Positions 18,575-43,302 of a DNA stretch of 46,043 nt are shown in pieces. The notes beneath the pieces are model-generated. The model did not search any database. It had not been told where the DNA came from and saw nothing but the letters and a program-made list of their open reading frames with translations. The stretch covers positions 1-46,043 of the forward strand of contig JACRCN010000008.1 in assembly GCA_016219005.1 (NCBI GenBank). Reading direction: 5' to 3'. The position numbers and the translations under genes were made by a program. The stretch is from Deltaproteobacteria bacterium (GTDB lineage Bacteria > Desulfobacterota > Desulfobacteria > Desulfobacterales > SpSt-501). Each line of letters starts with the position of its first letter. Positions within the stretch are counted from its first letter, which is position 1.

Positions 18575-19864
18575 ATGAGTCTGCTTTCACGGATACTCAA
18601 CCGGGTTACGCCACGTTCATCAGCCGCCGCGCCGGCGCCTTGGCCGCAGGCGCCGCAGTCCATCAGGGTTTCCGGCGGCGATGGCGGCGCGCTGACGATT
18701 CGCGCCGGCTGGCTCATCGACGGCCGGGGCGGGCCGGTGCGGCGCAACGTCCGGATTGTCGCAAAAGACGGGGGCATCGTCGGGCTCTGGGATGCGTCAG
18801 CCGAACCAGAAGGCTTTGCGGCCGAAGTCCTTCCGGACTATAGCGGTTGCACGGTGATCCCCGGCCTGGTCGACAGCCATGTGCACCTGACCCTGAGCGG
18901 TTCGGCGGATGAGGAATTCCGAAAAAGGCTGCGGGCGGCCTCGTATGAAAGCATCCGCCGGGTGATCGGCGATCATTTGCAGGACCACCTGAACCACGGT
19001 GTGGTCGCTGTGCGGGACGGGGGCGGGACTCGCGGCTATGCCCTGAGGTGCGCGCGGGGTTATTCCGGACCCGTGCGTGTGTGCGCCGCCGGCCGGGCCT
19101 GGCACCGGGAAGGCCGCTACGGTCGGCTCATCGGGCGGCCGCCGGGAAAGGGTCTCGGTCTGGCGGAGGCCATTCGTCAGGACGACGAACCGGTGGATCA
19201 CCTAAAGATCGTAAACTCCGGGTTGAACAGCCTGACCGAATACGGGAAACAGAGTGCGCCGCAATTCGACCTGAGACAGATGTCCGCCGCCGTAAAGGCC
19301 GCCGCGGAGCGGGGGCTGTCGATCATGGTGCATGCGAACGGAGCCGAGCCCGTGCGGATTGCGGTCGCGGCCGTTTGCCGGTCGATCGAACACGGGTTTT
19401 TCATGGGCAAGGACAACTTGGCTCGCATGGCGGACCAGGGCGTGACCTGGGTCCCCACCGTCGTTACGATGTCGGCGTATGCCCGGATTTTTGAGCAAAC
19501 CGGTCGCAACCCCGACGTTGCCCTCAGGACGCTCGATCATCAGCTCGAGCAGCTCGCGATCGCGCGCCTCCGGGGGGTGAGGCTGGCGTTGGGCACGGAT
19601 TCCGGCAGCCCCGGTGTCGATCACGGTGCGGCGGTCATCGAAGAAATGAAGCACTTGATGCAGGCCGGGTATTCCCTTCCGGAAGCCATCCATTGCGCCA
19701 CACTAAACGGGGCGCGTCTGATCGGCGGCGAATTCGGGCTGATCGAGCCGGGCAGACCGGCGACGTTTGTGATCGTGGAGGGTGGTCCATCCACGCTGCC
19801 GGAAGGTTTAAGGAAAATCAGGGCGGTCTTCATCTGCGGGATCAAGCAATTCGAGGCCGGCTGA
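18575..19864 (+). CDS. Metal-dependent amidohydrolase (imidazolonepropionase/prolidase-like)
   Basis: A 429-residue TIM-barrel hydrolase. Metal ligands are visible in order: DSHVHL (residues about 104-109), a Lys in DHLKIVNSG that would be carbamylated, His in MVHANG, His in IEHGFF, and Asp in GTDSGSPG. The N-terminal and C-terminal strands (LTIRAGWLIDGRG, GRPATFVIVEGG) form the small beta domain. No signal peptide is seen, so it acts in the cytoplasm. The substrate cannot be told; relatives cleave cyclic amides or Xaa-Pro dipeptides. It ends the plus-strand string and is convergent with the SDR gene. Confidence 0.9.
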   Translation: MSLLSRILNRVTPRSSAAAPAPWPQAPQSIRVSGGDGGALTIRAGWLIDGRGGPVRRNVRIVAKDGGIVGLWDASAEPEGFAAEVLPDYSGCTVIPGLVDSHVHLTLSGSADEEFRKRLRAASYESIRRVIGDHLQDHLNHGVVAVRDGGGTRGYALRCARGYSGPVRVCAAGRAWHREGRYGRLIGRPPGKGLGLAEAIRQDDEPVDHLKIVNSGLNSLTEYGKQSAPQFDLRQMSAAVKAAAERGLSIMVHANGAEPVRIAVAAVCRSIEHGFFMGKDNLARMADQGVTWVPTVVTMSAYARIFEQTGRNPDVALRTLDHQLEQLAIARLRGVRLALGTDSGSPGVDHGAAVIEEMKHLMQAGYSLPEAIHCATLNGARLIGGEFGLIEPGRPATFVIVEGGPSTLPEGLRKIRAVFICGIKQFEAG

Positions 19865-19931
19865 TCGTGCTCGGCCATGATAACGACTGGAATCGAAGCG
19901 GGCTCGCACGAACATCCGATCGCTTTATCGT

Positions 19932-20894
19932 TTATGTGTAACGTTGGGGATGCATCTTCATTTCTTCCAGGAAATCTTCCACGATCCGCTCCGGATCGTA
20001 TTCGGGCTTCCATCCCCACTCTTTGCGTGCGACACCGTCGTCCAAGGGCTTCGTGAATCCGTCGATGATCTTCTGGCGTTTCTCATCGACCTGGAACTCT
20101 ATCCTGGCCCCCGGAACCTTTGACCTCACCAGATCCACCAATTCTTGCGCACTGGCAGCGGGCGTTGGGCCGGCAATGATGTAGTTCACCATTTTGATGT
20201 GTTCTACGGGCGCTGTCCCCAGCATCACAATCGCCCGGGCAGAGTCCTTGAAGTACATGACCGGGCAACGGGTCTCCGGTTTCACGTACATGATATACGG
20301 CTTGCCCTTGGCGCATTCTTCTATCACCCAGGCGTTATACTGGACGATGCCCGGCGTCTTCACCCCCGGCCCCACAATCGAGGGATAGCGAACCCCCCGG
20401 AAATCCAGGTCGTACTTGCGCTTGTAGAACTGGCCCAGCAGTTCCGAGAAGACTTTGGTGCAGCCATAGAAAAGCTGAGGACGCTGCAATGTGTAATCAT
20501 CCACGACGGGCTCACGGACGTCTATGCCATAGGTGGCGATGGTGCTGGCAAAGAGCACTTGGACCACATCCAACAACCGTGCCGCCTCCAACACGTGGAA
20601 TGTCCCCATGGCGTTGGCCCGGAAGGAAGCTGCCGGGTCAGCATCAGAAGGCACCGAGAGCATGCCCCCCATGTGATAGATCACCTTGGGCCGGAACGTT
20701 TTGACCACGTTCAACACGTGGCTGAAGTTACCCAGATCCCCACGAACCACCTCCACCTGGTCCGCCACGTCATCGAGCAGCTTCGTGGATGGGTTGATAT
20801 CAAAGACCACCACCCCCTTTTCGCCCTGTTCGAGGAGCAGGCGCACCACCTGTGCCCCAATGAATCCGGTTCCGCCTGTGACCAATACGCTCAT
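19932..20894 (-). CDS. Epimerase-type L-threonine 3-dehydrogenase-like SDR
   Basis: A 320-residue extended short-chain dehydrogenase: the NAD site VTGGTGFIGAQVV, the catalytic Ser/Tyr-Lys set (FASTIATYG; FYGCTKVFSELL), and a C-terminal part with FRGVRYPSIVGPG, KPETRCPVMYFKDSARA and DDGVARKEWGWKPEYD. This pattern matches the epimerase-like threonine dehydrogenases, which turn L-threonine into 2-amino-3-ketobutyrate, more than it matches sugar epimerases. It is the last gene of the TRAP/BKACE operon, 46 bases after the hydroxyacyl-CoA dehydrogenase. There it may oxidise a beta-hydroxy acid other than threonine; the substrate is inferred only. Confidence 0.85.
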   Translation of the reverse strand: MSVLVTGGTGFIGAQVVRLLLEQGEKGVVVFDINPSTKLLDDVADQVEVVRGDLGNFSHVLNVVKTFRPKVIYHMGGMLSVPSDADPAASFRANAMGTFHVLEAARLLDVVQVLFASTIATYGIDVREPVVDDYTLQRPQLFYGCTKVFSELLGQFYKRKYDLDFRGVRYPSIVGPGVKTPGIVQYNAWVIEECAKGKPYIMYVKPETRCPVMYFKDSARAIVMLGTAPVEHIKMVNYIIAGPTPAASAQELVDLVRSKVPGARIEFQVDEKRQKIIDGFTKPLDDGVARKEWGWKPEYDPERIVEDFLEEMKMHPQRYT

Positions 20895-20940
20895 GACCGT
20901 CTCCGATCTCGTGCAAGAAGCCAGCCTGCATCCGGGATGG

Positions 20941-21903
20941 CTATTTGTTCCAGTAATCGGCCCTCAGTCTTTCCAGAAACTCCTTATCCCGTTTACGAAC
21001 CGTTTCATCAAGCTCCGCCCTGGAGGAATCCAAAGTATAATCGTAAAATCCCTTGCCGCTCTTGATCCCGTAGTGGCCTTGAGCGACCAGGTTTTGGAGT
21101 GCCTTGGGCGGTTCAGTCATGCTTTGAATCTGGGGAGCCAGGTTCTCGCACACCTTGAGCCAGATATCCAATCCTCCCAGATCCATGGTGAGCAACATCC
21201 CGATGCTGGCCAGGCGAAACCCGATGCTGCCCTTGATCGCCTGGTCGATGTCCGCGGCGCTGGCCACTCCTTTTTCATAGAGGTCGATGACCTCCCGGGC
21301 CATGGCCGCCTGGATCCGATTCACCAGGAAGCCCGGCAGCTCCAGGTTGATCTTCACCGGCAGCTTTCTGATCCGGCTCAGAAGACGGATCGTTGTCGTC
21401 ACCGTCGCGTCGCTGGTCTGCTCGCCTTTCACCACTTCCACCGTGGGGACGATGTGGGGGGGATTGAACCAATGGGTGATGACCAGCCGATCCTTTTTTT
21501 TCACACGGGCGCCGATGTCCGTCATCATCAGCGAAGAAGTGTTGCTGGCGATGATGGCATCCGCATGGCAAAAGGATTCCACGCGTTGGAATAGGTCCTG
21601 TTTGACTGCCAGATTCTCAGGCGCGGCTTCAACGATGAAGTCGCTGCCCTGCGCGGCGGCCTGCAGTTCAGTGGTGGTGGTGAGTCTCTGGAGGGCCGGC
21701 TCGATCTCGTGCTTCTTCAGAAGGCCCCGATCATGAAACAGCTCCAGGTTCTTCTCGATATGTGCCCGGGCCGTGTCCAGAATCGGTCCTTTGAGGTCAT
21801 AGAGACGGACCGGATAGCCGTTCATGAGAAACGCTTGGGCGATCCCGTGTCCCATGATGCCTGCGCCAAGGACTGCGATGGTCCGGATGCCTTCGAACTT
21901 CAT
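20941..21903 (-). CDS. 3-hydroxyacyl-CoA dehydrogenase-type NAD enzyme
   Basis: The start at 21903 (GGAGG six bases upstream of the ATG) gives 320 residues. The N-terminal Rossmann motif is VLGAGIMGHGIAQAF; the catalytic Ser-His-Glu-Asn set is indicated by ASNTSSL, THWFNPP and the ENLAVK/VNRIQAAMARE regions. The C-terminal dimerisation domain ends with GIKSGKGFYDY. By family it oxidises 3-hydroxyacyl-CoA, or free 3-hydroxy acids, with NAD. Beside a beta-keto-acid cleavage enzyme it would supply the keto substrate. It lies 57 bases after the BKACE gene in the same operon. Confidence 0.92.
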   Translation of the reverse strand: MKFEGIRTIAVLGAGIMGHGIAQAFLMNGYPVRLYDLKGPILDTARAHIEKNLELFHDRGLLKKHEIEPALQRLTTTTELQAAAQGSDFIVEAAPENLAVKQDLFQRVESFCHADAIIASNTSSLMMTDIGARVKKKDRLVITHWFNPPHIVPTVEVVKGEQTSDATVTTTIRLLSRIRKLPVKINLELPGFLVNRIQAAMAREVIDLYEKGVASAADIDQAIKGSIGFRLASIGMLLTMDLGGLDIWLKVCENLAPQIQSMTEPPKALQNLVAQGHYGIKSGKGFYDYTLDSSRAELDETVRKRDKEFLERLRADYWNK

Positions 21904-21960
21904 TCTGCCTCCACTCTCGCAGGTAATAGAAGCGGGATGCTGACGTCCGCCGTTCACACG

Positions 21961-22881
21961 CTAATAGTTTACCTGATCCAACCCCTTCAGGCCGAGGGTT
22001 TGCCGGGCCTCATCCGGTGTTGCGGGTTCGATCCCGAGCTCCCGGGCAATCCTGACAATCTTCTCCGCCTGTTCGGCATTGCTCCTGGCCATGCGGCCCT
22101 TTTCCAGATAAAGGCTGTCTTCAAGGCCCACGCGCACATTTCCGCCCATGAGAAGGGCCATGGTGCACATGTTCATCTGGTGGCGGCCTGCCGCGCACAC
22201 AGACCATCTAAAATCGCCGATGGCGGCCCGTGCTGTCTGATACAGGAACATCACGTTTTCCAACGAGGGCTGGATGGCTCCGAGGATCCCTAAAACGAAC
22301 TGGAGGTAGACCGGCTTCCGGAGATGACCGGCCTCGATCATGTAAGCGACATTGTTGATCATCCCCACGTCGTAGATCTCGATCTCGGGCTTTGTCCCGC
22401 TCTCCCGGAAGTAACCGCAGAACTCCCCGAGCGTCTTGAAGGTATTGGGGAAAATGAAGTCCTCGGTCATGCCGAGATAGTGCGGCTCCCAGGGGAACTT
22501 CCACTCCTTGTAACGGGAGAGCTGCGGAAACAGGGCGAAGTTGATAGACCCGAAGTTGAGCGAGGCCAACTCCGGCTTGAATGCCCGGACCGAGACCGAG
22601 CGCTGCTCTACCGTCATTCCCAGACCAGCGCCGGTGCTCAGACAAAGGACGATGTTGCAGCGGGACTTAATGTCGGTGATCACTTCCTTGAAGAGGTCGA
22701 CGGAAACAGACGGCATGCCGGTTTGAGGATCTCGCACGTGGATGTGGGCCACGGCCGCCCCGGCCTCGTAGGCCCGCACCGCTTCATCCGCGATCTCTTT
22801 CGGGGTGATGGGCAGATGAGGACTCATGGTCGGGGTGTGGATACTTCCCGTGATCGCTGTGGTTATGATGGCTTTTGGCAT
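21961..22881 (-). CDS. BKACE (DUF849) beta-keto acid cleavage enzyme
   Basis: A 306-residue TIM-barrel enzyme of the Kce family, which converts a beta-keto acid plus acetyl-CoA into acetoacetate and a new acyl-CoA. The zinc ligands His46 and His48 appear in AHIHVRD at the same numbers as in Kce; a third ligand Glu is in VRVGLEDSLYL near residue 232. CLSTGAG occupies the usual STG motif. The start at 22881 is set by MPKAIITTAITG. The substrate of BKACE members is diverse (3-keto-5-aminohexanoate, dehydrocarnitine and others) and cannot be read from the sequence. It is flanked by a TRAP transporter and two dehydrogenases. Confidence 0.92.
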   Translation of the reverse strand: MPKAIITTAITGSIHTPTMSPHLPITPKEIADEAVRAYEAGAAVAHIHVRDPQTGMPSVSVDLFKEVITDIKSRCNIVLCLSTGAGLGMTVEQRSVSVRAFKPELASLNFGSINFALFPQLSRYKEWKFPWEPHYLGMTEDFIFPNTFKTLGEFCGYFRESGTKPEIEIYDVGMINNVAYMIEAGHLRKPVYLQFVLGILGAIQPSLENVMFLYQTARAAIGDFRWSVCAAGRHQMNMCTMALLMGGNVRVGLEDSLYLEKGRMARSNAEQAEKIVRIARELGIEPATPDEARQTLGLKGLDQVNY

Positions 22882-22916
22882 TCCATTCTCCGCAAAATTT
22901 TCATGAAATGTTCGGG

Positions 22917-24236
22917 CTAATGGGACAACACCCTTGGCAGCCAGAGGCACACGTCAGGAAAAACGATGCAAAGCAGTGTGATCGCCAGTTGCAGGAGGAC
23001 GAAAGGCACGACCCCTCGGTAGATGTCATTGAGGGGGATATCCGGTGCGATCCCCTTCAGGTAGAAAATGGAGTATGCGAAGGGGGGTGACAGGAACGAT
23101 ATCTGCAGGCTGATGCAGACCACGAGACCCACCCACAGGGGGTCGAACTTCAGATTGAAGAGGACGGGGGCGAAAATCGGCACCATGATCATGAGGATAC
23201 CGATCCAGTCGATGAAGCACCCCAGGATCAGGATGATGGTCAGCAGCGCGGCGAATATTCCCCAGGGGCCAAAGCCGAGACCGAGCAGCAGATCCGTGAT
23301 GACCTGGCCGCACCCGGCGTTCAAGAAGGCCCCCGTGAATATGTTGGAGGCGATGGCGATGAAGATGATCATGGCGGTGATGCGGAGCGTCAGGTAGCAA
23401 TTTTCTTTGAAGGACGTCCACGTGGTGGTGCGGTAGATAAGCCCCATGGCGATGGCACCGATGGACCCCAAAGCACCGGCCTCGGTGGGCGATGCCACTC
23501 CCGCAAAGAGGGATCCCAGAACGAGGCATACCAGGCCCAGCGGCGGACACAGATATTTCACGCCCTGAACAGCAGATTCCCTGGAGAAGAACTTCAGGGC
23601 CATCTCCCTGGGCAGGCTGGGTCCCATCTCGGGGGAGATGACGGTCCGAATGATGACGTAGACAATATAGGAGAGTCCCAGGAGTATGCCCGGAATGAAT
23701 GCGCCCGCATACATGTCCACCACGGATACCCCGGCCATCGGGGCATACAGGATGAGCATGACGCTGGGGGGAATCAGGATTCCCAGGGTGCCGCCGGCGC
23801 AGACCACACCGCTGGCTAACGCCATGGAATAGCGGGCGTTGCGCATGGAAGGTATGGCCAGAAGGCCGATGGCCGTTTCCGAGGCCCCCACCACACCGAC
23901 GCACGCCGCGAACATCATGGCCAGCGTAATGGTGGCAACGGCCAGCCCGCCCTTGAGCCCGGCCATCCACCTCTGGAGAACGATGAACGCCCGCTCGGCC
24001 ACTCCCGAGCTTCCCATCATGGCCCCCATGAAGATGAAGAGGGGGACTGCGGCCAGGATGTATTCCGAGAGCGTACCGTTGATGACCCGTTGCGGGATCA
24101 TATAGAGAAAAGCGTTGCCTCCGGTCAGGTACCCGAAGAGAAGGCCCATGGTACCAATACCGAAAGCAAGGGGGAAGCCTGCCAGGAGGATAAACAGGCT
24201 GAGAAGCATCAGGACGGTGGTAAGCTCAGGACTCAT
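22917..24236 (-). CDS. dctM: TRAP transporter large permease (DctM)
   Basis: The start at 24236 (MSPELTTVLM) overlaps the end of dctQ by 11 bases. The 439-residue protein has about twelve to thirteen hydrophobic segments and typical DctM landmarks: FPLAFGIGTMGLLFGYL, PLFIFMGAMMGSSGVAERAF, GVVGASETAIGLLAIPSM, and CAGGTLGILIPPSVMLILY. It imports an organic acid across the inner membrane with sodium, as the second half of a DctQ-DctM unit fed by the binding protein at 24837-25889. Confidence 0.96.
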   Translation of the reverse strand: MSPELTTVLMLLSLFILLAGFPLAFGIGTMGLLFGYLTGGNAFLYMIPQRVINGTLSEYILAAVPLFIFMGAMMGSSGVAERAFIVLQRWMAGLKGGLAVATITLAMMFAACVGVVGASETAIGLLAIPSMRNARYSMALASGVVCAGGTLGILIPPSVMLILYAPMAGVSVVDMYAGAFIPGILLGLSYIVYVIIRTVISPEMGPSLPREMALKFFSRESAVQGVKYLCPPLGLVCLVLGSLFAGVASPTEAGALGSIGAIAMGLIYRTTTWTSFKENCYLTLRITAMIIFIAIASNIFTGAFLNAGCGQVITDLLLGLGFGPWGIFAALLTIILILGCFIDWIGILMIMVPIFAPVLFNLKFDPLWVGLVVCISLQISFLSPPFAYSIFYLKGIAPDIPLNDIYRGVVPFVLLQLAITLLCIVFPDVCLWLPRVLSH

Positions 24237-24738
24237 GGGCCCCTCCCTGGATGGCGACACGCAAGGCGCGTAAGAAGTTCACCAGCCCCTGAAAGATGAA
24301 CAGAACGAATCCGAAAGTGATTATCAGCTTGAACGGCGCCAGCTTGGGACGCCACACGCTCACCGAGGATGCCTCTCCGGACTGGAGGGACCACAACGTA
24401 TGCTCCCCGCACTTGTACGTGAGGACAATGAGAAAAGGGAAGAACAGCAGGAGATAGCAGACAACGTCGACCCACGCCTTCGCCCTGGGCGACAGTTTGG
24501 CGTAGATCATGTCCATCCGCACATGGGCCTTGACTTTCTCGCAGTACGCTACACCCAGCATGGCGTAGGCACCATAAACCATGTAGGTGAGCTCGAAGCC
24601 CCACGCCGTCGGTTTATTGAAGATGTAGCGCATGGCCACGTCATAACAAATGGCGATCACCAGCCCCGCCATGAAGAAGCTGGCCAGCTTTCCCGTCCAC
24701 TCGCTGAGCGCATCGATGAAACGGAAGACCTTTTCCAT
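24226..24738 (-). CDS. dctQ: TRAP transporter small permease (DctQ)
   Basis: A 170-residue protein with four membrane segments (about 15-35, 48-66, 88-108, 132-156). The RYIFNKPTAWGFELTYMVYG and HVRMDMIYAKLSPRAKAW motifs are typical. It lies 98 bases after dctP and overlaps dctM, so the order P-Q-M is that of a standard TRAP operon. Confidence 0.95.
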   Translation of the reverse strand: MEKVFRFIDALSEWTGKLASFFMAGLVIAICYDVAMRYIFNKPTAWGFELTYMVYGAYAMLGVAYCEKVKAHVRMDMIYAKLSPRAKAWVDVVCYLLLFFPFLIVLTYKCGEHTLWSLQSGEASSVSVWRPKLAPFKLIITFGFVLFIFQGLVNFLRALRVAIQGGAHES

Positions 24739-24836
24739 GCAGGTTCCCCCCGTGCAAACGGATTCGAGGGCTATATCCCGATGGGTGTCCCCGGGATCAT
24801 AGCCCTCTCACAGACATCGCGATCGATTTTCCGCTC

Positions 24837-25889
24837 TTAGTGGGGCAGCGAAAACCGTTTGCTGTATGGATACCACTTCTCGCCGAAGTCCTTCTGGGAC
24901 TTCCACACCTTGCCGAAGAATTCATCCTTGGCGCTCATTTCGTCCAAGTAAACAGAAGCCCACTTCATGAAAGTCTTCACGGTCTCCGGGTCCACCTCGA
25001 CGATCTCGATGCCCTTTTCCTTGAAAAAAGCCATGGCCTCGATGCTCTTGGATTCCATCCAGAGCCAGTTCTGGAGCCGGCTCTTCCACATGGCTGCGTC
25101 CACCAGTACCTTCAGATCCGCCGGGAGGGCTTCCCAGGCCTTCTTGTTGACAACGACTTCCAATTGAGATGCCGGCTGGTGAACCCCTGGAAGATGAAGG
25201 TACTTGCAGACCTCCCAGATGCCCAGGCCCTTGTCGAAAGAAGGAATGCTGTATTCCGCGGCATCGATGACGCCCCGCTGCAGGTTGGGCATGATCTCGC
25301 CGGCCGGCATGAACACGACGGAGAGCCCGTTTCTGGTCATGACATCCCCCATGACGGGCATCATGCGAAACTTGATGCCCTTGAAATCCTCGATCTTGCG
25401 AAGGGGTTTCTTGGACCACATGAAGATCTCCATGGCCAGGGGCGCAGCGATAAATACCTTCACATTGTACTTGTACTTGTCGTACATCTCCTGGTACAGT
25501 TCCTTGCCTCCGCCATGTTCGAGCCACATCTGCATATCCAGGGCATTCATACCCCCCGGAGCGGCTGTGAAAAGCGGCGCCACGGGGATCTTCCCCACCC
25601 ATTGCCCCGTGTAACCGAAATTGGCTTCATACACCCCGTCGCTCACGGCCTTGAGTCCTTCGAAGGGCGGGACCAAAGCGCCGGCCGGGAAGACTTCCCA
25701 AACCAGCCTGCCGCCGGTCAGGTTCTTGACCTCTTCCGCCGTGCGTTGAAGGGTCTCATGGTAAAGCATCCCGGCCGGGACAAATCCCTGAACTTTCCAC
25801 TTGATGACCTTCTCTTGGGCCAGAGCCGGTACCATCAGTGCGATCATGACCACAATGGTGAAGACGCCTGCAAACATTTTTCTTCTCAT
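24837..25889 (-). CDS. dctP: TRAP transporter substrate-binding protein (DctP)
   Basis: A 350-residue periplasmic protein with a clear signal peptide (MRRKMFAGVFTIVVMIALMV, cleavage after ALA near residue 24). The start is fixed by GGAAGGAGG seven bases before the ATG. The mature fold has the DctP hallmarks FKGIKFRMMPVMGDVMTRNG, whose Arg (about 176) binds the carboxylate, and NLQRGVIDAAEYS. The type resembles TakP/DctP7 proteins that bind keto acids or other organic anions; the ligand is not known. It begins the catabolic operon that continues to 19932. Confidence 0.95.
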   Translation of the reverse strand: MRRKMFAGVFTIVVMIALMVPALAQEKVIKWKVQGFVPAGMLYHETLQRTAEEVKNLTGGRLVWEVFPAGALVPPFEGLKAVSDGVYEANFGYTGQWVGKIPVAPLFTAAPGGMNALDMQMWLEHGGGKELYQEMYDKYKYNVKVFIAAPLAMEIFMWSKKPLRKIEDFKGIKFRMMPVMGDVMTRNGLSVVFMPAGEIMPNLQRGVIDAAEYSIPSFDKGLGIWEVCKYLHLPGVHQPASQLEVVVNKKAWEALPADLKVLVDAAMWKSRLQNWLWMESKSIEAMAFFKEKGIEIVEVDPETVKTFMKWASVYLDEMSAKDEFFGKVWKSQKDFGEKWYPYSKRFSLPH

Positions 25890-26028
25890 GGCAACTTCCT
25901 CCTTCCCCCGTAGTTGTTCCGATGTTACTGGGCAGCAAAAAAGTTTGCCGCTTTACTACCCTCGAGAGGTGCAAGTCAGAGAGTCCAAAACGCTGTGCAC
26001 CCTGGCTGACGGCCAGATGCCTGTTATT

Positions 26029-26053
26029 CGACAACCGGTTAATCGAATTGTCG
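26029..26053. promoter_or_regulatory. Imperfect palindrome upstream of the TRAP/BKACE operon
   Basis: Arms CGACAA and TTGTCG are perfect and 13 bases apart; the inner bases are only partly symmetric. It is 140 bases before the dctP start, in the right place for a regulator of the operon. No regulator gene is in the operon. Confidence 0.35.
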
Positions 26054-26066
26054 CAATCGCCTGCCG

Positions 26067-26244
26067 GAGGCTTGATAGAAGGGGTTTCTCCTGCGGTAAA
26101 CGCCTGGAGGCTGGATGGTAAAAGGCACTGTGGGCGTATTGATGGGACAACATGTAGCCACCTCAACAGATCGCGGTTGGCCTGCTCGATCGACTCAAAC
26201 CCGTAGCCGTACCAGAAGCGCTCGTGGACGTAATCGATGGGCTG
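26067..26244 (-). mobile_element. IS21-like transposase remnant
   Basis: The minus strand reads IDYVHERFWYGYGFESIEQ and ANRDLLRWL (26244-26155), the motif near the end of the IS21 IstA integrase core. After one frame change it continues with LPQEKPLLSSL (about 26099-26067), matching the usual EKPLL ending. Both sides are cut by stops. It is a decayed fragment, not a working gene. Confidence 0.65.
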
Positions 26245-26256
26245 CTACACTTTGTC

Positions 26257-26275
26257 ATTCATCTATTGGATGAAT
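26257..26275. repeat. Perfect inverted repeat in intergenic DNA
   Basis: ATTCATC and GATGAAT flank a five-base loop (TATTG). It lies between the IS21 fragment and the hydrolase 3' end. It could be a weak operator or part of an element end; no T run follows. Confidence 0.35.
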
Positions 26276-26409
26276 AACTTTCAATTTTTAAATACGCCTT
26301 ACAGGAATAGAAGTTAAACGTCAAGTCGAAAAACCGGTAGCGCAGATCAGGCGAAGCCGAGACGGCGGGCAAGGTGACCGAGAATCTGCATAAAATGCGG
26401 ACGGACTGG

Positions 26410-27168
26410 TTATCGGTCGATGCGGTGCCCGACATGTTTCAAGCCGTTGCTCAGCCACAGGGATGCCTCGCGGATGAAATCCGCCTGGTGGGTGGCATCC
26501 CCCATGAGGTGGTCGCCGCCTTTTTGGACGAGAAGGCGTTTGGGCTCACCGGCGTGATCGAAGATTTCGTGCGCGTGGGAAAGCGGCACCAGATCGTCGG
26601 CCTCTCCGTGAATGACGAGGATGTTGCGCAGCCGGCCGAGGGTGCCGGCAAGCTCGAATTCTTCCCTCAGGACGGAGGCCATCCGGCTGAGCTCGGGCGA
26701 AGCCTCCGGTCCCCGGCCCGGGGGTTTGAGCGGCAGGCTGCGAACCGGTGCGGCAAAGGTGACGGCTGCCGCCACCTGCCGCTGGCTGGCCACCCGCAGG
26801 CACACCGCACCGCCCATGCTGCTGCCGAAAAGCCCGATCCGCTTTCCCAGGCCGGGGCGTGAATCCATCAGGCGGATCGCGTGGAGCAGATCGCTCGCCC
26901 GGCCCTCCAGGGATGTGACCGCCTCCAGCCGCCCCGCGCTTTCCCCGCAGCCCCGGTGGTCAAAGCGGAAAAAGGCCAGGCCGAGAGCGGTGCAGGCCTC
27001 GGCGAGAGCGATCTGTTTGGGAGAGTTGCGGTCGCTCAGCAGCCCGTGGCAGCCGATGACGACCGGCGGGTTGTCGGCGGCGGGAAGATGCAGCGTCCCC
27101 TTGAGCCGGAACCCATCCGCGGCAAACTGAATGTCTGCAGTGGACGTGCGGCTTGAAACCCCGGCCAT
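26410..27168 (-). CDS. Alpha/beta hydrolase
   Basis: The start at 27168 is chosen for the GGAGG five bases upstream; the open frame extends to a GTG at 27183. The 252-residue protein has the nucleophile elbow GLFGSSMGGAV, an oxyanion region PPVVIGCHGLLSDRNSP, a possible acid Asp in GEADDLVPLSHA, and the catalytic His in KGGDHLM. It belongs to the serine aminopeptidase/esterase group. It has no signal peptide. It is divergent from the RNA methyltransferase gene, with 61 bases between the starts. The substrate is not evident. Confidence 0.9.
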   Translation of the reverse strand: MAGVSSRTSTADIQFAADGFRLKGTLHLPAADNPPVVIGCHGLLSDRNSPKQIALAEACTALGLAFFRFDHRGCGESAGRLEAVTSLEGRASDLLHAIRLMDSRPGLGKRIGLFGSSMGGAVCLRVASQRQVAAAVTFAAPVRSLPLKPPGRGPEASPELSRMASVLREEFELAGTLGRLRNILVIHGEADDLVPLSHAHEIFDHAGEPKRLLVQKGGDHLMGDATHQADFIREASLWLSNGLKHVGHRIDR

Positions 27169-27229
27169 GCCTGCCTCCAGCACGAAAATCCTTGAAGTCT
27201 GCGGCTCGTTCCTCTAATCTACACCACAT

Positions 27230-34504: not shown

Positions 34505-35977
34505 TTATTCTTTATCCAAAGCTTTCCTGACCGCACCGGCCATCTCATTTATCAATATCGGCTTCATGACAAGCGCCTTGATGCCTATTTTCACAGCCCG
34601 CTCCTGGTCTATGGCCTGGCTGTAGCCCGTGCAGATAATAACAGGGAGGGTAGGCCTTATCCTCAGCAATTTCCTCGCCAGCGCCTCTCCTGTCATGCCA
34701 GGCATGGTCTGGTCGGTGATCACGAGGTCGAAATGATCGGGTTTTGCCTTGAAAAGCTCAAGTGCCTCTATGGGGCTGGTTCGAGAGACGACATCGTACC
34801 CTAAATGCTGAAGCGCTTGCTGTCCGACAGCCACCAGCATCTTCTCGTCATCTACAAACAGGATTCTCTCGGAGCCTCCCAGTATTGATTTCGGATGCTC
34901 CGCTTTGATCGGCGCCATGATATCGGCTTTGGGCAAATAAATTTGAAAAGCAGTGCCCTTCCCCAACTCACTTTCAACCTTAATAGCGCCGCCATACTTC
35001 TTGACAATCCCATGAACAACGGCGAGACCCAAGCCAGTCCCGACACCCTTTTCTTTCGTGGTGAAATAGGGGTCGAAAATCCGTTTTATGACATCGGGGG
35101 CCATTCCATATCCCGTGTCCTTAACAGAAATCCTGACGTATGACCCTATCTCCAGGTCGATTAAGTCATTCTTTTGGGCGAGGTCGATTTCAGTATTATG
35201 CACCTCAACTTCCAGAAGGCCGGCCCGGCCGCCGATGGCATGCTGGGCATTCGTGCAAAGATTCATGATGATCTGGTGGAGTTCAATTGAATTTGCCAAG
35301 ACCGCCCCGGATTTTTCATCAATGCAGGTTTTGATTTCAATCGTTGCCGGTATCGTTGCACGCAGAAATTTTACGGCTTCCTTGACGACCAGTCCCACCT
35401 TGACCGGCATGCGATCTTCATCGGTCTGCCGGCTGAACGCAAGAATCTGTTTAACAAGATCTTTGGCTCGGTTTGCCGCAATTAAAGCCTGATTTAGTTC
35501 GTTTTCACTATTTGATGCGCCTTCGTTGAGCATGGCAAGCTCGGTATAGCCAATGATGGCCGAAAGAATATTATTGAAATCATGCGCAATACCCCCGGCC
35601 AGACCACCGATGGCTTCCATTTTCTGCGCTTGACCCAGTTGGGCTTCAAGCTGCTCGCGGCGTTGGTCGGCAAGTTTGCGATCGGTGATATCCCGGAAGA
35701 CTCCGAAAATCTGGGCTTGGCCCTGGTAATGAATGGGCACCCCGGTCGACTCCACGTACACAACATTCCCATCCACAGTTAAAACTCGATGCTCGCGGGG
35801 AGGTGCAGTCCATCTTTCATTTACCCCTTTTCTTATTCTCTCGGCGGATCCGGGACGATCATCCGGATGGATAAAATCCAAGTAGCGTTTTCCAACCAAC
35901 TCACGCGCATGGTTCGCACGGAACAGCTTGAGTGCAGCCGGGTTCGCATAAATAACGATTTCTCCGGAGCGGACCAA
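34505..35977 (-). CDS. Kinase-receiver half of the split hybrid histidine kinase
   Basis: From the only near-cognate start (TTG 35977), 490 residues can be read: a PAS domain lacking its first strand (about 1-110), the HisKA with phospho-acceptor His in GGIAHDFNNILSAIIGYTEL, a HATPase with NLCTNAQHAIG, DTGYGMAP and GTGLGLAVVHG, and a C-terminal receiver with Asp in DLVITDQTMPGMTG. All catalytic residues are present. No ribosome site supports the TTG, so expression would need re-initiation, read-through of the TAA, or an unseen start. Confidence 0.7.
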   Translation of the reverse strand: MVRSGEIVIYANPAALKLFRANHARELVGKRYLDFIHPDDRPGSAERIRKGVNERWTAPPREHRVLTVDGNVVYVESTGVPIHYQGQAQIFGVFRDITDRKLADQRREQLEAQLGQAQKMEAIGGLAGGIAHDFNNILSAIIGYTELAMLNEGASNSENELNQALIAANRAKDLVKQILAFSRQTDEDRMPVKVGLVVKEAVKFLRATIPATIEIKTCIDEKSGAVLANSIELHQIIMNLCTNAQHAIGGRAGLLEVEVHNTEIDLAQKNDLIDLEIGSYVRISVKDTGYGMAPDVIKRIFDPYFTTKEKGVGTGLGLAVVHGIVKKYGGAIKVESELGKGTAFQIYLPKADIMAPIKAEHPKSILGGSERILFVDDEKMLVAVGQQALQHLGYDVVSRTSPIEALELFKAKPDHFDLVITDQTMPGMTGEALARKLLRIRPTLPVIICTGYSQAIDQERAVKIGIKALVMKPILINEMAGAVRKALDKE

Positions 35978-36040
35978 GATTGCATCCGTGGAGGACTCAA
36001 CGATTTGACGGTGTCTTTCTTCACTCTCCCGCAGCGCCTC

Positions 36041-38614
36041 TTAAGCCTGCTTGCGCTCGGTGATATCAACGCAGGCCCCAATTCGCTTCGAGGGGATTCT
36101 GCCTGAAGCTGTCTCGCGAAACAGCGTGCGTCCCCGCCATAGGACCCATCGCACCTGGCCGTCGGGGCGAACGATCCGGTGCTCGGAGGAAAACCTGCCG
36201 TCTCTGTCCGGGTCCATGCCTCGTGCGCTTTCGGCCAAAACGCGTTCCAGATCGTCTTCATGAACGATTTTCCAGGCGTCGTCGCCGGTTCTTTCAGCTC
36301 CGGGCGGCACGCCCAGGATCGCGCACAACTCCGGCGACCAGTATACCTTATCCGCTTCCAGGTTCGTCACATAGGTACCTATCCGGCCCGCCTCGTTGGC
36401 GATCCGCAGCCGGTGCTCGTTCTCACGCAATGCTTCTTCCGCCTGCTTGCGTTCGGTGATGTCGGTCGCAAAGCCCTCGATGATAAACGAGCCGTCCTTC
36501 GTGCACTCGGATACGCGGGCGTTCATGCTCAGCCAGATGATTCCGCCGGCGGCGGTGCGTGCCTGATACTCAAATTGCTCCACGCGGCCGAAATCCCGCA
36601 GCAAGCGGATGAATTCGTCCCGTCGTTCGGCATGAACGTAAAGCTCGGCTGAGAGATCGGTGTAGTGCTCCAGCGCTTCTTCCGGGGAGGGGAACCCGAG
36701 AATTCGGGCCATCGCAAGATTGATGGCAAGGGGCTGCCCGCTCGAACTCGTGGTGAAGATGCCTACCGGTGCGCTCTCGAACAACATGCGAAATCGATCT
36801 TCGCTCTCACGCAGGGCGTCCTCGGCCCGCTTGCGCTCGGTTATGTCGGTGTGGGTGCCGAGCATTCGCAACGGTTGCCCATCGGCCGAGCGCGATACCA
36901 GCCTGCCGAGCGAGAGAATCCACTTCCAGTCCCCGCTCTGGGTGCGTTGTCGGTACTCGACGCGATACTCATCGCGCAGGCCTGCTACATAATCCTCGTA
37001 TCTCCGGTAAACCTTCTCGCGATCGTCCGGGTGCAAGCGTTCGCGCCATGCGGAGTTGTTCTCGCGGAACTCGGCCGGATCGTAACCGAGCATGCGGGCA
37101 TACTCCGGGCTGACGACACATTCCCCGGTCTGGACATTGAGATCGTAAAGCCCCTGGTTGGCGGCGGCAAGGGCCAGGCGCAGGCGCTCCTCGCTTTCAA
37201 TGAGCGCCCGCTGTGCAGCGCGCTCCTCGGTCTGATCGTGGAAGACCAGCACTACACCGATGACCGCACCGCTCTCTTCCCGAATGGGTGCGCCGCTGTC
37301 GGCGATGGGTCGTTCGGTCCCGTCGCGGGCAATCAGCAGGGTGTGGTTGGCAAGTCCCACTACAGCGCCATCGCGCAGCACCCGTTGAACGGGATCTTCA
37401 ACAATTGCATGGGTCTCTTCGTTGACGATGCGGAAAATCTCTTCCAGGGGTCTGCCCCGGGCTTCCGCCTCGGTCCAGCCGGTGAGCCTTTCCGCAACCG
37501 GGTTCAGATGCCGCGCCCGACCACCGGTATCCGTAGTGATGACCGCGTCGCCAATGCTGTAGAGGGTTATGCGATATGTCTCTTGGATCTCACGTTGCTG
37601 GCGCTCCGCCTCGTAGCGATCCCGGAAGTTATGCACCTGCCGCCGTCGGTAGAAGTAGACGGTCGCGGCTGCGGCCAGCAGAATGTATGACCCGACGATG
37701 ACCGCGATGACGCTGGCCCGGTAGCGCGCCTCAGCGAAGATTTCCTCCGCATCCATCTTGGCCACCATGAACCAGGACGAACCGGGAATAGGGCGGAGAT
37801 CGGCCACCACCTCCACGCCGCGGTAGTCTTGGCCCTCGAACTTGCCTTGCTTGCCGAGTACTGCCTGCACACCGGGAAGATCCGTTCTCGTCAACGGCAT
37901 GCGCAAGGAGATGGCGGTCCTAGCTTTATGGCGCAGCTCGTTCAGGAAAACGATTTCCTCGCCCTCCTGCTGGACGAGCAGCGTCTCGGCGCTGCTGCTG
38001 GGCGTGGGCCAAGACTGAATCAGAGGATACAGGTAGGTTTCCGCGTTGCTGCGTAAAATAGCAACTGCCACCGGCTGCCCCTCAGAGTCCAGCACCACTG
38101 CAGCGACATCGATATGAACGAAGCCATCCGGGCAGCGGAAGAAATCGGAAAGCACGGCCTCACGACGTGCGATGGCCTTCGCGATTGCCCGCCGCGTAGC
38201 TGCGCCCACCGGGTCGGGAGTATCATTGACGCCAACCAGGATGTTTCCATTCAGATCGAGCAGGCGCGCATCGGAATACCCGTCAGCCATTACCGTGGCA
38301 TTTAAGAATTCCCGCAGTTCCGCTTGAAGACCCGGAGTAGCGGGATCCATGGAAAATTTTCCAATAGCCCCGGCCAGGAAGGGATTTTTCGCCGCTACAG
38401 AGATGTCGCCCAGGCGCTCCTTTCGCCACTGCTGAATCTGCGCGGACTTGAGTCTGCCGATGGCGGAGATCGCCTGGTATTTCTCGTGGCGGATTTCTTT
38501 CGCCTCTTTCCGATAATACCAATAGCCGCCGGCCGAAATCGTTAAAGCAATCACGGCGAAGATAGCGGTCCACACTTTGAGAGCGGAACCGGCAGGTAGA
38601 TATTTATCGCCCAA
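36041..38614 (-). CDS. Sensor half of the split hybrid histidine kinase
   Basis: The 857-residue frame has a membrane segment (about 12-33), an extracytoplasmic Cache-type domain (about 35-300), a second membrane segment (about 303-325), and four PAS domains (about 350-465, 475-600, 605-725 and 730-857), joined by ERKRAEDALRESE-type linkers. It ends at the TAA right after ERKQA. Alone it would bind a ligand but could not phosphorylate anything. Confidence 0.75.
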   Translation of the reverse strand: MGDKYLPAGSALKVWTAIFAVIALTISAGGYWYYRKEAKEIRHEKYQAISAIGRLKSAQIQQWRKERLGDISVAAKNPFLAGAIGKFSMDPATPGLQAELREFLNATVMADGYSDARLLDLNGNILVGVNDTPDPVGAATRRAIAKAIARREAVLSDFFRCPDGFVHIDVAAVVLDSEGQPVAVAILRSNAETYLYPLIQSWPTPSSSAETLLVQQEGEEIVFLNELRHKARTAISLRMPLTRTDLPGVQAVLGKQGKFEGQDYRGVEVVADLRPIPGSSWFMVAKMDAEEIFAEARYRASVIAVIVGSYILLAAAATVYFYRRRQVHNFRDRYEAERQQREIQETYRITLYSIGDAVITTDTGGRARHLNPVAERLTGWTEAEARGRPLEEIFRIVNEETHAIVEDPVQRVLRDGAVVGLANHTLLIARDGTERPIADSGAPIREESGAVIGVVLVFHDQTEERAAQRALIESEERLRLALAAANQGLYDLNVQTGECVVSPEYARMLGYDPAEFRENNSAWRERLHPDDREKVYRRYEDYVAGLRDEYRVEYRQRTQSGDWKWILSLGRLVSRSADGQPLRMLGTHTDITERKRAEDALRESEDRFRMLFESAPVGIFTTSSSGQPLAINLAMARILGFPSPEEALEHYTDLSAELYVHAERRDEFIRLLRDFGRVEQFEYQARTAAGGIIWLSMNARVSECTKDGSFIIEGFATDITERKQAEEALRENEHRLRIANEAGRIGTYVTNLEADKVYWSPELCAILGVPPGAERTGDDAWKIVHEDDLERVLAESARGMDPDRDGRFSSEHRIVRPDGQVRWVLWRGRTLFRETASGRIPSKRIGACVDITERKQA

Positions 38615-38868
38615 TATGGATCATCCTTTCTTCATGCATTCGACAACTTCTTGGTCTAAGGTCAATTCCGTTCCTAGACACTTCTGGATCTACTCGCCCG
38701 ACGCTCCAAGCGAATGGCATTGGGATATATCATGTTAATTGCACTTCTTCCGATAGGGTACCACAAATCTCAATACAACTAAACGTGTCATTCCTATCCG
38801 CTCGTGTCCGGGTTGAGGGACAGGCATGTTTTTAGGCGCCCTTCAATCTCGCGCATAGAACCGTTTGT

Positions 38869-41800
38869 TCAAATTAGGGCTTCGCGGATTTTCGTGGCGA
38901 AAGCCTCCCTGGAAAACGGTTTCTGCAGGAAGTGAACGCCTTCGTCGAGCACCCCGTGGTGGGCGATGACGTTGGCGGGGTAGCCCGACATGAAAAAACA
39001 TCTAAGGCCTGGCTGCGAGGCTTTGATCTGTTCCCACAGGTCGCGGCCACTCATTTCGGGCATCACGACGTCGGTGACCAGCAAATGGATTTCGTTGGTG
39101 TATTCTTTCGCCAGCCGGATCGCTTCCCGCGGACTGCCGGCCGCCAGTACGGTATAGCCCAACTCTTCCAGCAGCATTCCGGCAAATTTGAGCAGCGACC
39201 TTTCGTCTTCGACCAGCAGCACGGTTTCCGTGCCGGTTGGAATTTCGGCAGGTTTGTGCGGCTGTTCGGCGGCTGCCGCCTGAGGCTCCTGCCGCGGCAG
39301 GTAAATTTTGAAGGTAGTCCCTATCCCTGGTTCGCTGTACACATTGATGAATCCGTTGTTCTGTTTGACGATGCCGTAAATCGTCGCCAGGCCGAGGCCG
39401 GTGCCTTTCCCAACCTCCTTGGTGGTAAAAAAGGGCTCGAAGAGTTGCACCAGGGTCTTTTTGTCCATGCCGCAGCCGTCGTCGCTGACCGCCAGCATTA
39501 TATATTTCCCTGGGATAAAACCCGCATGGGCCTGGCAGTAGTCAGCGTCGAACTCCACCTTGCCGGTCTCGATGGTTATCTTGCCGACGCCGGCGATTGC
39601 GTCGCGGGCATTGACCATCAGATTGGCCAGAATCTGGTCGATCTGGGCCGGGTCCATCTTCACCGGCCAGAGGTCTTTAGCGGGTTTCCAGAGCAGGTCG
39701 ATATCCTCGCCGATCAGCCGTCTAAGCATCTTGAGCATGCTCGCGATGGTATCATTGAGATCAAGAACCTTCGGGTCGATGGTTTGCTTGCGGGCGAAGG
39801 CTAAAAGCTGGCGGGTGATGTCGGCTGATCGCTGTGCGGCGGACTTCACTTCGTCCAGATACATCTGGAGCGGATCATCTGCCGGCAGCTTCATGCTCGC
39901 CAGCTCAGTATACCCTATGATCACCCCCAGCATGTTGTTGAAGTCGTGAGCGACACCGCCTGCCAGCCTTCCGACGGCCTCCATTTTTTGTGATTGCCGG
40001 AATTGGTTCTCCAACTGGAGGCGCTGAGTGATGTCACGGTTGCTGCCCCGGCGCCCCATATAATTCCCTTTTTTGGAAAAAACAGCCCAACATTTATGGT
40101 CGATCCAGCGTGCCTCCCCGGTCTGCGTTATTATACGAAACTCAATTCCACCCGGTTTTGAACTGCACGTTCCCAGATCATTCATGTGGGATTCAAATTT
40201 ATAGCGATCTTCAGGATGAATGATATTGAAGAGCGCTTGCGGATCGTCCAAAAAAAATGAGGGCGGATAGCCCGATACCCTCTCGCAGGAAGGCGACACG
40301 TATAGAAATTTTCCGGCAGAATCGACCCAGTATTCCCAGTCGTACGTGTAATCCGCCACAAATCTGTACCGCTCCTGGCTCTCGCGAAGCTCCTGCTCTG
40401 CCCGCACCCGTTTAATGGAGGTGCCCAGCTGCAGCGCCGCCTTCTCCAACAATTCGACCACTCCCAAGGGGACCATGCCCTCGCGACGGTCGGCCACATG
40501 AATCAAGCCCAGTATCCGGTCGCCATCACGAAACGGCACCAGCGCCACGGATTCGTAGCCCTCATAATTGCACCTGTTGCGGGTTTGCCCTTTGTCTTCC
40601 TCCGAAACCGTCGCCAGAAAACGGGTGGTACCGTTCATGTAAAAAGAGGCCCCCTGGGTATAGAACGGCAGCCCGGGGTCAACCGCCCCCCTGATAACGT
40701 TGATGCACATGCACTGGTCCGACTTTATGGAAAGAGGACTTTCCAGATTAAAAAAATCTTGACTGAAACCGGTGTAAGCCCGGTAGGGAATTCTCCCCTC
40801 TTCGTCGAGGACCCTTATGCCCACAGCCTCACAACCGGTGTAGGCCCTGATCTCAGACATAAATGCTTCCAGCAGAGGGGTCATCTCCCTCTTGTCGTGA
40901 ACGATTTCAAGAAAGCGATGAGAAACCCGTAGTGCTTCCTCGTCCCTTTTACGCTCGGTGATGTTATCAAAGACCGCAATAAAGTCTTCCCGATGCAGGC
41001 TGTACGCGGAAATCGAGAGCCATATCTCCAACGGTTTCAAATAGATTTCGAACGCTTCAGGTTTGCCGGTCAGAGCAACTCGCCCATAAATTTCAAAAAG
41101 CTCCGGAGACAGTTCCCTGATCCCCGGAATCACATCGCTGACTTTTCTGCCGACCACGTTTTTCAATCCGGTCAGGCGGGTGAAGGCCTGGTTGACATCG
41201 AGATAGACAAAGTCTACCGGGCGGCCCTGGTCGTCGAGAAGCATTTTACAGTACGCAAACCCGTTCAACATGTTTTCAAAGAGCGCACGATATCGGTCCC
41301 GGCTCTCCTGAATGGCTGTTTCGGACCGCTTGCGCTCCGTGATGTCCTCGGTAAAGATAACGATTCCACCAACGGCGCCGTCGGCCGTGTACCAGGGCCG
41401 CACCACCCACCGCAGCCATTGAACGGTGCCGTCTGACCGTACGAAGGCGTCTTCATCGGTCTGCACAACCGCGCCCTCCAGTCCCTGACGATGCGCTTCC
41501 TTCCAGCGGTCCGGGATTTCGGGGGTAATCTCGTAGTGAGATCGGCCGACCATGTCCCGGTTTCCGAGGTGATAGTCCGCCATCCAGCGGCGACTGGCAG
41601 CGAGGTAGCGCATCTCGCGGTCGAACATGGCGATGGCAACCGGCGCATGTTCGATGAACAGCCGGAGTTTTTCTTCGCTCACGCGCAGGGTGGCTTCGGC
41701 TCTCGCGCGCCTTTCCGCCGCCTCGTCAAGCAGGCGACGAGCAGCTGCGACTTCGAGAATGTCCGGAAGCGGTGCTCCCGGCGCGGGCGTTTCCGCCAGG

Positions 41801-42708: not shown

Positions 42709-42801
42709 GGTGAAGCCTCCTCGTCAGGCGGGTCTGGCGCGTCGAGAAAGATCAGGGGGACGGGCTGCTGCCGTCCGACCCGGCGCGACAGATCGTTAAT
42801 C

Positions 42802-43078
42802 CGTTTACTTTCGTCTCACACACGCTATGACAACGTCAGTATCATGTTGTATGGATACCGAAGTATCGGTTTCGAATTTTGACAGGGGCGATAAAGGAGT
42901 TGCCTAAAAAGGTATCCCGGCGATTTGCGGGCATGCGGGATGCGAGGTGCTGGAGCTGGATGTGCAGTCGGATATTGTGCATCTGGTGGTAATGACGCCC
43001 GCGATGTTGTCGATCTCGGACCTGCTGGGTCGGTTGAAGGGTCAGATCTCGATAGGGTGCCTATGCTTCTTGGGATAA
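42802..43078 (+). mobile_element. Decayed IS200/IS605 transposase (TnpA) remnant
   Basis: Three plus-strand frames joined by two 1-base losses give a clear IS200 TnpA: LLSSHTRYDN (to about 42834), then YHVVWIPKYRFRILTGAI and KELPKK (42840-42911), then IPAICGHAGCEVLELDVQ (from 42914) and VHLVVMTPAMLSISDLLGRL with KG (to about 43040), then a stop at 43076-43078. The HUH motif is damaged (DIVH for DHVH), and the part with the catalytic Tyr is gone. No tnpB follows. Confidence 0.85.
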
Positions 43079-43144
43079 TTCTACCACATACGCCATTTTA
43101 ATAAAACGATATTTTATAACTCATTGATATTTTAATTATATGAT
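43079..43144. promoter_or_regulatory. AT-rich stretch with a direct repeat, possible promoter region
   Basis: Strongly AT-rich between GC-rich neighbours. GATATTTTA occurs twice (43108-43116 and 43126-43134), 18 bases apart, which suits tandem sites for a regulator. It lies just before the structured leader. A clear -35/-10 pair was not found. Confidence 0.4.
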
Positions 43145-43213
43145 CGCTCTCCTTTTCCTGGGTCGAGCCGTGGAAGGCTCAAGGGCGGTCATCTAAAAAT
43201 AGGGAGGAGAGCG
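43145..43213 (+). promoter_or_regulatory. Structured 5' leader hiding a ribosome site
   Basis: A perfect 9-bp stem joins CGCTCTCCT (43145-43153) with AGGAGAGCG (43205-43213). The 3' arm overlaps the Shine-Dalgarno (GGGAGGAG) and the first base of the GTG of a candidate 29-codon ORF. Inside is a second hairpin GAGCC-GTGGAA-GGCTC (43165-43180) and a single-stranded GGGCGGTCATCTAAAAATA. The layout is that of a riboswitch or an attenuator; it does not match a riboswitch class I can recall. Confidence 0.5.
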
Positions 43214-43302
43214 TGCAAGAAATAAAAGCTCGCTTATTGGGGCCGTTTTCATTTCATATGAAATACATGATCGACCCCATATCGACCCCAAGAGCACTCT
43301 AA
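43213..43302 (+). CDS. Candidate 29-residue leader ORF upstream of the heme-sensor kinase
   Basis: GTG 43213 follows GGGAGGAG and runs for 29 codons to TAA 43300-43302, 33 bases before the kinase start. The reading gives VQEIKARLLGPFSFH, then MKYMIDPISTPRAL. A leader peptide for attenuation, a small protein, or chance are all possible. The ribosome site lies in the outer stem of the leader, which would link its translation to the fold. Confidence 0.35.
   Translation: MQEIKARLLGPFSFHMKYMIDPISTPRAL
43251..43264. promoter_or_regulatory. Perfect 14-bp palindrome before the heme-sensor kinase
   Basis: ATTTCATATGAAAT reads the same on both strands. It is 72 bases before the kinase start, inside the small ORF. 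A second short direct repeat, ATCGACCCCA, follows at about 43269-43290. It could be an operator. Confidence 0.4.

Follow-up and report, generated by a model that had tools for sequence, protein, structure and literature searches.

Which acid is taken up and broken down by the products of six neighbouring genes that join a tripartite ATP-independent periplasmic (TRAP) transporter to a β-keto acid cleavage enzyme (BKACE) and two different dehydrogenases? The genes occupy positions 19,932 to 25,889 of a 46,043-nucleotide stretch of DNA from a Deltaproteobacteria bacterium (JACRCN010000008.1, assembly GCA_016219005.1), referred to here as the window, which is contig C36 of a 5.24-Mb draft genome (G000). 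The first dehydrogenase, termed HAD, is of the 3-hydroxyacyl-CoA-dehydrogenase (3HCDH) type, and the second, termed SDR, is an extended short-chain dehydrogenase resembling L-threonine 3-dehydrogenase (TDH). We consider that the genes probably form an operon for the breakdown of a short, neutral 3-hydroxy acid, which would be imported, oxidized and then cleaved with acetyl-CoA.

A conserved set of importer, BKACE and two dehydrogenases

The row of six genes on one strand that an initial annotation had described is present at these positions, and all six products match the expected Pfam families:

24837-25889, minus strand: dctP, TRAP solute-binding protein of 350 residues (Pfam DctP, 138.6 bits)
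24226-24738, minus strand: dctQ, small TRAP membrane subunit (Pfam DctQ, 89.5 bits)
22917-24260, minus strand: dctM, large TRAP membrane subunit (Pfam DctM, 240.6 bits; TIGR00786, 288.7 bits, cut-off 268.45)
21961-22881, minus strand: BKACE, 306 residues from a likely ATG at 22881, in a frame open to 22950 (PF05853, 350.2 bits)
20941-21903, minus strand: HAD, 320 residues from a likely ATG at 21903, in a frame open to 21957 (3HCDH_N, 202.6 bits; 3HCDH, 75.8 bits)
19932-20894, minus strand: SDR, extended short-chain dehydrogenase related to TDH (Pfam Epimerase, 124.1 bits)

Read from 25889 down to 19932, the six consecutive open reading frames (ORFs) follow the order dctP-dctQ-dctM-BKACE-HAD-SDR, with gaps of 98 bp (dctP-dctQ), 35 bp (dctM-BKACE), 57 bp (BKACE-HAD) and 46 bp (HAD-SDR) and an overlap of 35 bp between the dctQ and dctM ORFs. 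Homologue lengths, together with ribosome sites of GGAG type, point to the likely starts given for BKACE and HAD, and the dctP start is preceded by a strong ribosome site, AAGGAGG. Because the spacing is short and the gene set is conserved, the six genes are presumably transcribed as a single unit.

In order to follow the set beyond the window, the window proteins were used as queries against 395 genomes of the phylum, with up to five candidates scored per genome; all linkage counts are lower bounds, and the HAD matches are those listed. Of these genomes, 68 encode a relative of the BKACE (E ≤ 1e-60), 35 a relative of the SDR and 132 a relative of the HAD (both at E ≤ 1e-50). For at least 20 of the 44 listed SDR places a BKACE is no more than 12 kb away, when about 0.3 would be expected at random; at least 23 have a listed HAD within the same distance, and 25 have one or other of the two enzymes. 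The survey of gene order in other genomes that the initial annotation had called for therefore finds the set recurring, with at least 18 of the 44 SDR places near both a BKACE and a HAD. The BKACE-HAD-SDR set is conserved and is not a product of chance. From the BKACE side, 21 of 87 places are within 12 kb of an SDR, and most BKACEs of the set therefore work in other settings.

The TRAP loci that carry all three enzymes are the window, L036, L043, L087, L088, L037 and L081 (ARRANGEMENTS). The order TRAP-BKACE-HAD-SDR is shared by the window, L036, L043, L087, L088 and L037, the last being cut inside dctM, and L081, its contig also cut inside dctM, has the order dctM-HAD-SDR-BKACE. The nearest named loci, L036 and L037, are from metagenome-assembled genomes of Desulfobacterales, and the phylum is accordingly taken to be Desulfobacterota (Thermodesulfobacteriota). 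Two further loci show the order HAD-TRAP-SDR, L094 (cut after the SDR) and L093 (cut inside the HAD), with no BKACE in either stretch, and L083 is a TRAP locus with a HAD, an SDR and an acetoacetate-CoA ligase.

BKACE, HAD and SDR also occur together next to an unrelated importer, a Liv-type ABC transporter, in one case within the window genome itself (L063, contig C97). L063 shares the order XRE-HAD-LivHMGFK-SDR-BKACE with L059, L062, L067, L076, L077, L078, L108 and L109. Among the variants, L057 has the XRE regulator after the BKACE, L055 has the BKACE between LivF and LivK, and L100 and L101, whose BKACEs are more distant, have the order XRE-BKACE-Liv-SDR-HAD. The Liv and XRE-cupin names were assigned with Pfam for L063, as was the regulator in L083 and L100, and otherwise by blastp.

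Some arrangements around these enzymes are of separate interest. Two adjacent BKACEs, 51% and 72% identical to the BKACE of L063, follow the SDR in the Liv-type operon at L109:159-2156 (G337:C424). Downstream of the Liv-type set, L076:9491-16356 encodes an IclR regulator, an EPSP-synthase-like enzyme, an NMT1-type binding protein, a 640-residue DctM protein and an MFS transporter. A BKACE stands beside two different HAD-type dehydrogenases at L048:10042-12863 and L054:6882-9699, and at L085:4893-8965 an SDR of the group precedes a ChsH2-type OB-fold protein and a pair of thiolase-like proteins. The window genome has five BKACE genes, on contigs C36, C21, C97 and C9 (two), at least two of which adjoin dehydrogenase and transporter sets.

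Repeated joining or exchange of the BKACE

The HADs of the TRAP loci form a single clade of 12 rows (SH-aLRT support 100); TRAP genes are on the contig for 11 of these, and none were seen on the 3-kb contig of L086. A further group is made up of ten Liv-locus HADs (support 87) and joins the HADs of L039 and L107 (97), whereas those from L100 and L101 are placed next to the TRAP clade (92) rather than with the other Liv HADs. This HAD tree is a quick one with long branches among the references, and L044 was left out. For the BKACEs in the seven TRAP loci the picture differs: a tree that forces them into one clade was rejected by the approximately unbiased (AU) test (log-likelihood 136 lower, p-AU 1.1e-6), and the fewest label changes on the BKACE tree is 4. 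The TRAP group was named before the AU test and after the quick BKACE tree had been seen. L044, L046 and L047, on the same contigs as L039, L038 and L040, were left out of that quick tree; the AU test was run also without L064-L066, L068, L069, L041, L042, L100, L101 and the PDB references, and L105, L106 and L108-L114 are absent from all trees. Since the TRAP HADs are monophyletic and the TRAP BKACEs are not, the BKACE was joined to the TRAP-HAD core, or exchanged in it, more than once, which we take as the strongest sign that BKACE chemistry belongs in the core.

Predicted activities of the encoded proteins

The window BKACE is a member of PF05853, its 350.2 bits comparing with a cut-off of 24.8, and the site residues H69, H71, E277, R273 and D278 are kept in the alignment (numbering from a GTG start). 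H69, H71 and E277 align with H46, H48 and E230 of Kce, which we take to be its zinc ligands, just as we assume the site roles of the Arg and Asp; the claim that this DUF849 enzyme has Kce-like zinc ligands is borne out. The enzyme is predicted to carry out acetyl-CoA-dependent cleavage. At the position of Kce Glu14, which holds the substrate amino group according to PMC10470551, the window BKACE has Ile. The nearest curated family is NF053538 (3,5-dioxohexanoate), on which the window BKACE reaches 408.9 bits, under the cut-off of 430; BKACE15 (521.6) and 3lot (448.3) lie above it. Also below 430 are the BKACEs of L048 (428.5), L039 (423.7), L043 (421.1), L045 (412.8), L081 (401.7), L063 (400.7), L087 (392.5), L078 (390.4) and L101 (234.6), and the model gives no separation of the TRAP-operon BKACEs from that of L039.

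The catalytic His, Ser, Asn and Glu of the window HAD are all kept in the alignment. Lys56 and Asn221, named in PMC10470551 as contacts to the CoA part of the substrate, are found in 0 of 31 HAD rows, for either residue; the L039 and L044 rows of this alignment are the same gene, and one HAD outside the length limits was left out. The window HAD is predicted to act on a free 3-hydroxy acid, to which the loss of the CoA contacts points weakly.

For the SDR, the best PDB relatives are L-threonine 3-dehydrogenases. The NAD motif and the catalytic Ser/Thr-Tyr-Lys are kept (S117, Y143 and K147 in at least 95% of 33 rows), whereas the GTTDYA substrate loop, a motif defined from three aligned TDHs and present in 3 of 3 of them, occurs in 0 of the 33 SDRs of the loci examined, and the WP motif is absent in 32 of the 33. 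The substrate pocket is thus probably altered relative to TDH. D-Erythronate dehydrogenase, the top NCBIfam match, was rejected as an identity at 108.5 bits against a cut-off of 325. Matches to the SDR occur in 43 records of a plasmid collection, each at less than 60% identity, the highest among the 15 matches listed being 33.8%; in three plasmid regions viewed (two with a HAD, one with an SDR) the incomplete gene tables name no BKACE.

The P, Q and M components are adjacent, as required of a TRAP transporter. The nearest solved relative of DctP in the PDB is 2zzv (E 6.8e-45), and others include 7ug8 (ketoacid-binding), 7e9y (lactate-binding TTHA0766, a fusion) and 2hzk (SmoM, binding sorbitol and mannitol).

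A proposed route for a short 3-hydroxy acid

From these families we propose that DctPQM would import the acid. The HAD, with the SDR acting in parallel or in sequence, would then oxidize the hydroxyl with NAD to give a β-keto acid, a step for which both enzymes retain catalytic residues. The BKACE, with its zinc-site residues in place, would convert this β-keto acid and acetyl-CoA to acetoacetate and R-CO-CoA, following the chemistry of its family, and the acetoacetate would be activated by acetoacetate-CoA ligase. At least two relatives encode this ligase within the operon, and the window genome encodes it at another place. R would have to be longer than methyl, because acetoacetate or 2-amino-3-ketobutyrate entering the cleavage would give no net change. 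The likeliest acids have five or six carbons, such as 3-hydroxyvalerate, 3-hydroxyhexanoate, 3-hydroxy-5-oxohexanoate or 3,5-dihydroxyhexanoate, with each substrate class by itself rather unlikely. The label of an acid still to be named, given in the initial annotation, holds, as the substrate is not settled from sequence alone.

Enzymes of the 3HCDH family oxidize the (S) hydroxyl, and TDH oxidizes the 3R hydroxyl of threonine, in which the order of priorities is as in (R)-3-hydroxybutyrate. The HAD-type enzyme CsTfD favours (S)- over (R)-3-hydroxybutyrate (PMC10470551). On these grounds we would guess that HAD and SDR have opposite stereopreference, so that either enantiomer of the acid might be converted to one and the same keto acid.

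In L043 the operon ends with the ligase gene (NF002937, 906.1 bits, cut-off 639), and the ligase at the end of the L083 operon was recognized from 46% identity to it and from AMP-binding and ACAS_N domains. By similarity, a ligase also lies beside the SDR in L084 (87% identical) and divergent to dctP in L096 (62%), and in L057 one follows the BKACE and the regulator (903.2 bits). The window genome has one copy, on contig C3 (938.6 bits, cut-off 520.9). Because cleavage with acetyl-CoA yields acetoacetate, a ligase in the relatives fits the proposed route; it also fits direct use of 3-hydroxybutyrate.

Recurrence across loci supports the earlier proposal of a dedicated importer feeding a route of hydroxy-acid oxidation and BKACE cleavage with two dehydrogenases. 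That proposal had also called the route new: the combination of importer and two dehydrogenases does recur, and its novelty is softened by the known phloroglucinol pair of triacetate-forming dehydrogenase (TfD), which is of HAD type, and triacetate acetoacetate-lyase (TAL), a BKACE. To our knowledge, few BKACE pathways have been described, and a TRAP or Liv operon with a BKACE and two dehydrogenases was not found in the titles and abstract openings of the literature searched. Tentatively, and with more doubt than confidence, the genes may represent an undescribed anaerobic route for imported short-chain 3-hydroxyalkanoates, for instance the 3-hydroxyvalerate or 3-hydroxyhexanoate of polyhydroxyalkanoates, in which two dehydrogenases of unrelated folds would serve the two enantiomers, the BKACE would place the acyl group on CoA without a ligase for the acid, the BKACE would have been captured or exchanged repeatedly, and either importer could be used. 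With importer, two dehydrogenases and BKACE recurring together, the substrate should be findable by binding screens and a few assays, and solving it would give a function to the TDH-like SDR group and to the TRAP and Liv binding proteins.

Weighing the alternatives

A number of observations weigh against the proposed route. No listed BKACE lies within 12 kb of 24 of the 44 SDR places, and 19 of the 44 are near neither a listed BKACE nor a listed HAD, some of them at contig ends. TRAP-HAD loci in which no BKACE was seen also exist (L083, L095 and L096), and L095 and L096 show a HAD and no SDR; in the Liv-type locus L061, with its XRE gene after the BKACE, there is no HAD in the stretch examined. 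The SDRs of the TRAP loci, too, fall into more than one group of the tree. An Agrobacterium HAD whose gene neighbours encode a CoA transferase and an enoyl-CoA hydratase also lacks both CoA contacts, which is why their loss is a weak pointer to a free acid. The solved DctP relatives are named for lactate, keto acids and sugar alcohols, none for 3-hydroxy acids, and the window operon itself has no ligase gene.

Two other loci of the phylum were recorded alongside these. At L039:6199-11931 a classical SDR, a HAD, a BKACE, a protein like 2,4-diacetylphloroglucinol (DAPG) hydrolase and a DUF3604 protein are encoded in a row. The row at L107:2011-11479 (G177:C47) comprises a BKACE, a classical SDR, a HAD, an acetoacetate-CoA-ligase-like gene 66% identical to the ligase of L043, a large molybdenum subunit of pyrogallol-hydroxytransferase type, an Fe-S partner and an FmdE-like protein, and looks like a pyrogallol or phloroglucinol degradation cluster.

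The window genes could instead encode the lower phloroglucinol/triacetate pathway, the HAD being TfD and the BKACE being TAL, with the TRAP system importing 3-hydroxy-5-oxohexanoate or with the ring opened elsewhere. This is a serious rival because the L039 BKACE, found with a HAD, the DAPG-hydrolase-type protein and a classical SDR, is 76% identical to that of the window, and because of the L107 cluster, whose classical SDR is 71% identical to that of L039; NF053538 is the nearest curated family, and the TfD-TAL pair is established (PMC10470551). We nevertheless think it unlikely. Only HAD- and BKACE-type genes are shared with the pathway: genes for phloroglucinol reductase, cyclohydrolase and transhydroxylase are all missing from the window operon, and the sole PF04199 cyclase of the genome is on another contig (C65, 78.8 bits). 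The TRAP-type HADs stand outside the clade of the L039 and L107 HADs, which groups with the Liv-type HADs; the BKACE is under the NF053538 cut-off, on a model that does not split the TRAP BKACEs from L039; and the published pathway has no role for a TDH-like SDR. In another reading, SDR and HAD would each oxidize one hydroxyl of a dihydroxy acid, e.g. 3,5-dihydroxyhexanoate, before the BKACE acts. Both dehydrogenases do accompany a BKACE at the at least 18 SDR places counted above, and BKACE15 accepts 3,5-dioxo- and 5-hydroxy-3-oxohexanoate. L096, however, has TRAP and HAD genes with no SDR nearby, and none of the candidates scored in its genome (G387) matched the SDR at E ≤ 1e-50, so sequential oxidation seems quite improbable.

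A pathway of CoA esters, in which the HAD would act on 3-hydroxyacyl-CoA and the BKACE would be a bystander, could account for the TRAP-HAD loci that show no BKACE and for the HAD of 39% identity in the Agrobacterium CoA-transferase/enoyl-CoA hydratase cluster. It is very doubtful for the window, whose operon has no CoA ligase, CoA transferase or hydratase, and in whose core a BKACE was linked more than once. The hint in the initial annotation that the SDR might oxidize threonine to 2-amino-3-ketobutyrate, to be cleaved by the BKACE, draws on the TDHs as the best PDB relatives of the SDR and has to be given up almost entirely: the TDH loop is missing from all 33 SDRs and the WP motif from 32, the HAD would have no role, and the BKACE would regenerate the same keto acid, since the acetyl group would be moved to CoA and then put back. 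The oxidation of an imported 3-hydroxy acid followed by BKACE cleavage therefore remains the reading that we prefer.

Surroundings of the operon

Two genes flank the operon in the window:

26410-27183, minus strand: α/β hydrolase, a large ORF upstream of the operon
18575-19864, plus strand: gene downstream of the SDR and convergent with it

The end of the hydrolase ORF, at 26410, makes it the nearest large same-strand ORF upstream of dctP, 520 bp away. It was excluded from the operon, having no homologue in loci L036-L082 (blastp, E 1e-15, 30% identity, 60% coverage). A consensus scan of 19700-26500 gave one promoter-like and three terminator-like sites, fewer than in shuffled sequences and none at the operon ends. 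Farther away in the window, PAS-rich sensor genes follow one another at 34505-45150; two of them encode histidine kinase domains, and a gene for a Tll0287-like sensor lies there too.

Comparison with known systems

With Kce of lysine fermentation the window BKACE shares the family, the zinc-site residues and the Arg and Asp; it differs in the change of Glu14 to Ile and in its score on NF052387 (267.4 bits, cut-off 382), and identity with Kce was rejected. The SDR has the extended fold, NAD motif and catalytic Ser/Thr-Tyr-Lys of SDR-type L-threonine 3-dehydrogenase and has lost the GTTDYA and WP motifs.

Carnitine catabolism likewise combines a HAD-type carnitine dehydrogenase with a BKACE (PMC12482172 and PMC2131755), and a figure legend of PMC2131755 places a D-carnitine dehydrogenase beside the L enzyme, so the funnelling of two hands has a parallel there. 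The window operon differs in having no thioesterase-type gene, and its HAD, at 148.7 bits, stays far short of the cut-off of 414 for the L-carnitine dehydrogenase model, so that a carnitine route was discarded.

The nearest known pathway is the lower half of phloroglucinol degradation, in which TfD and TAL of Clostridium scatologenes, as presented in PMC10470551, oxidize a free 3-hydroxy acid with a HAD-type enzyme and then use a BKACE and acetyl-CoA, with acetoacetate as a product. The HADs of the phylum's phloroglucinol-like clusters, L039 and L107, lie in a different clade from the window HAD, and the window operon, which has no ring-reducing or ring-opening enzyme, adds a TRAP importer and a TDH-like SDR.

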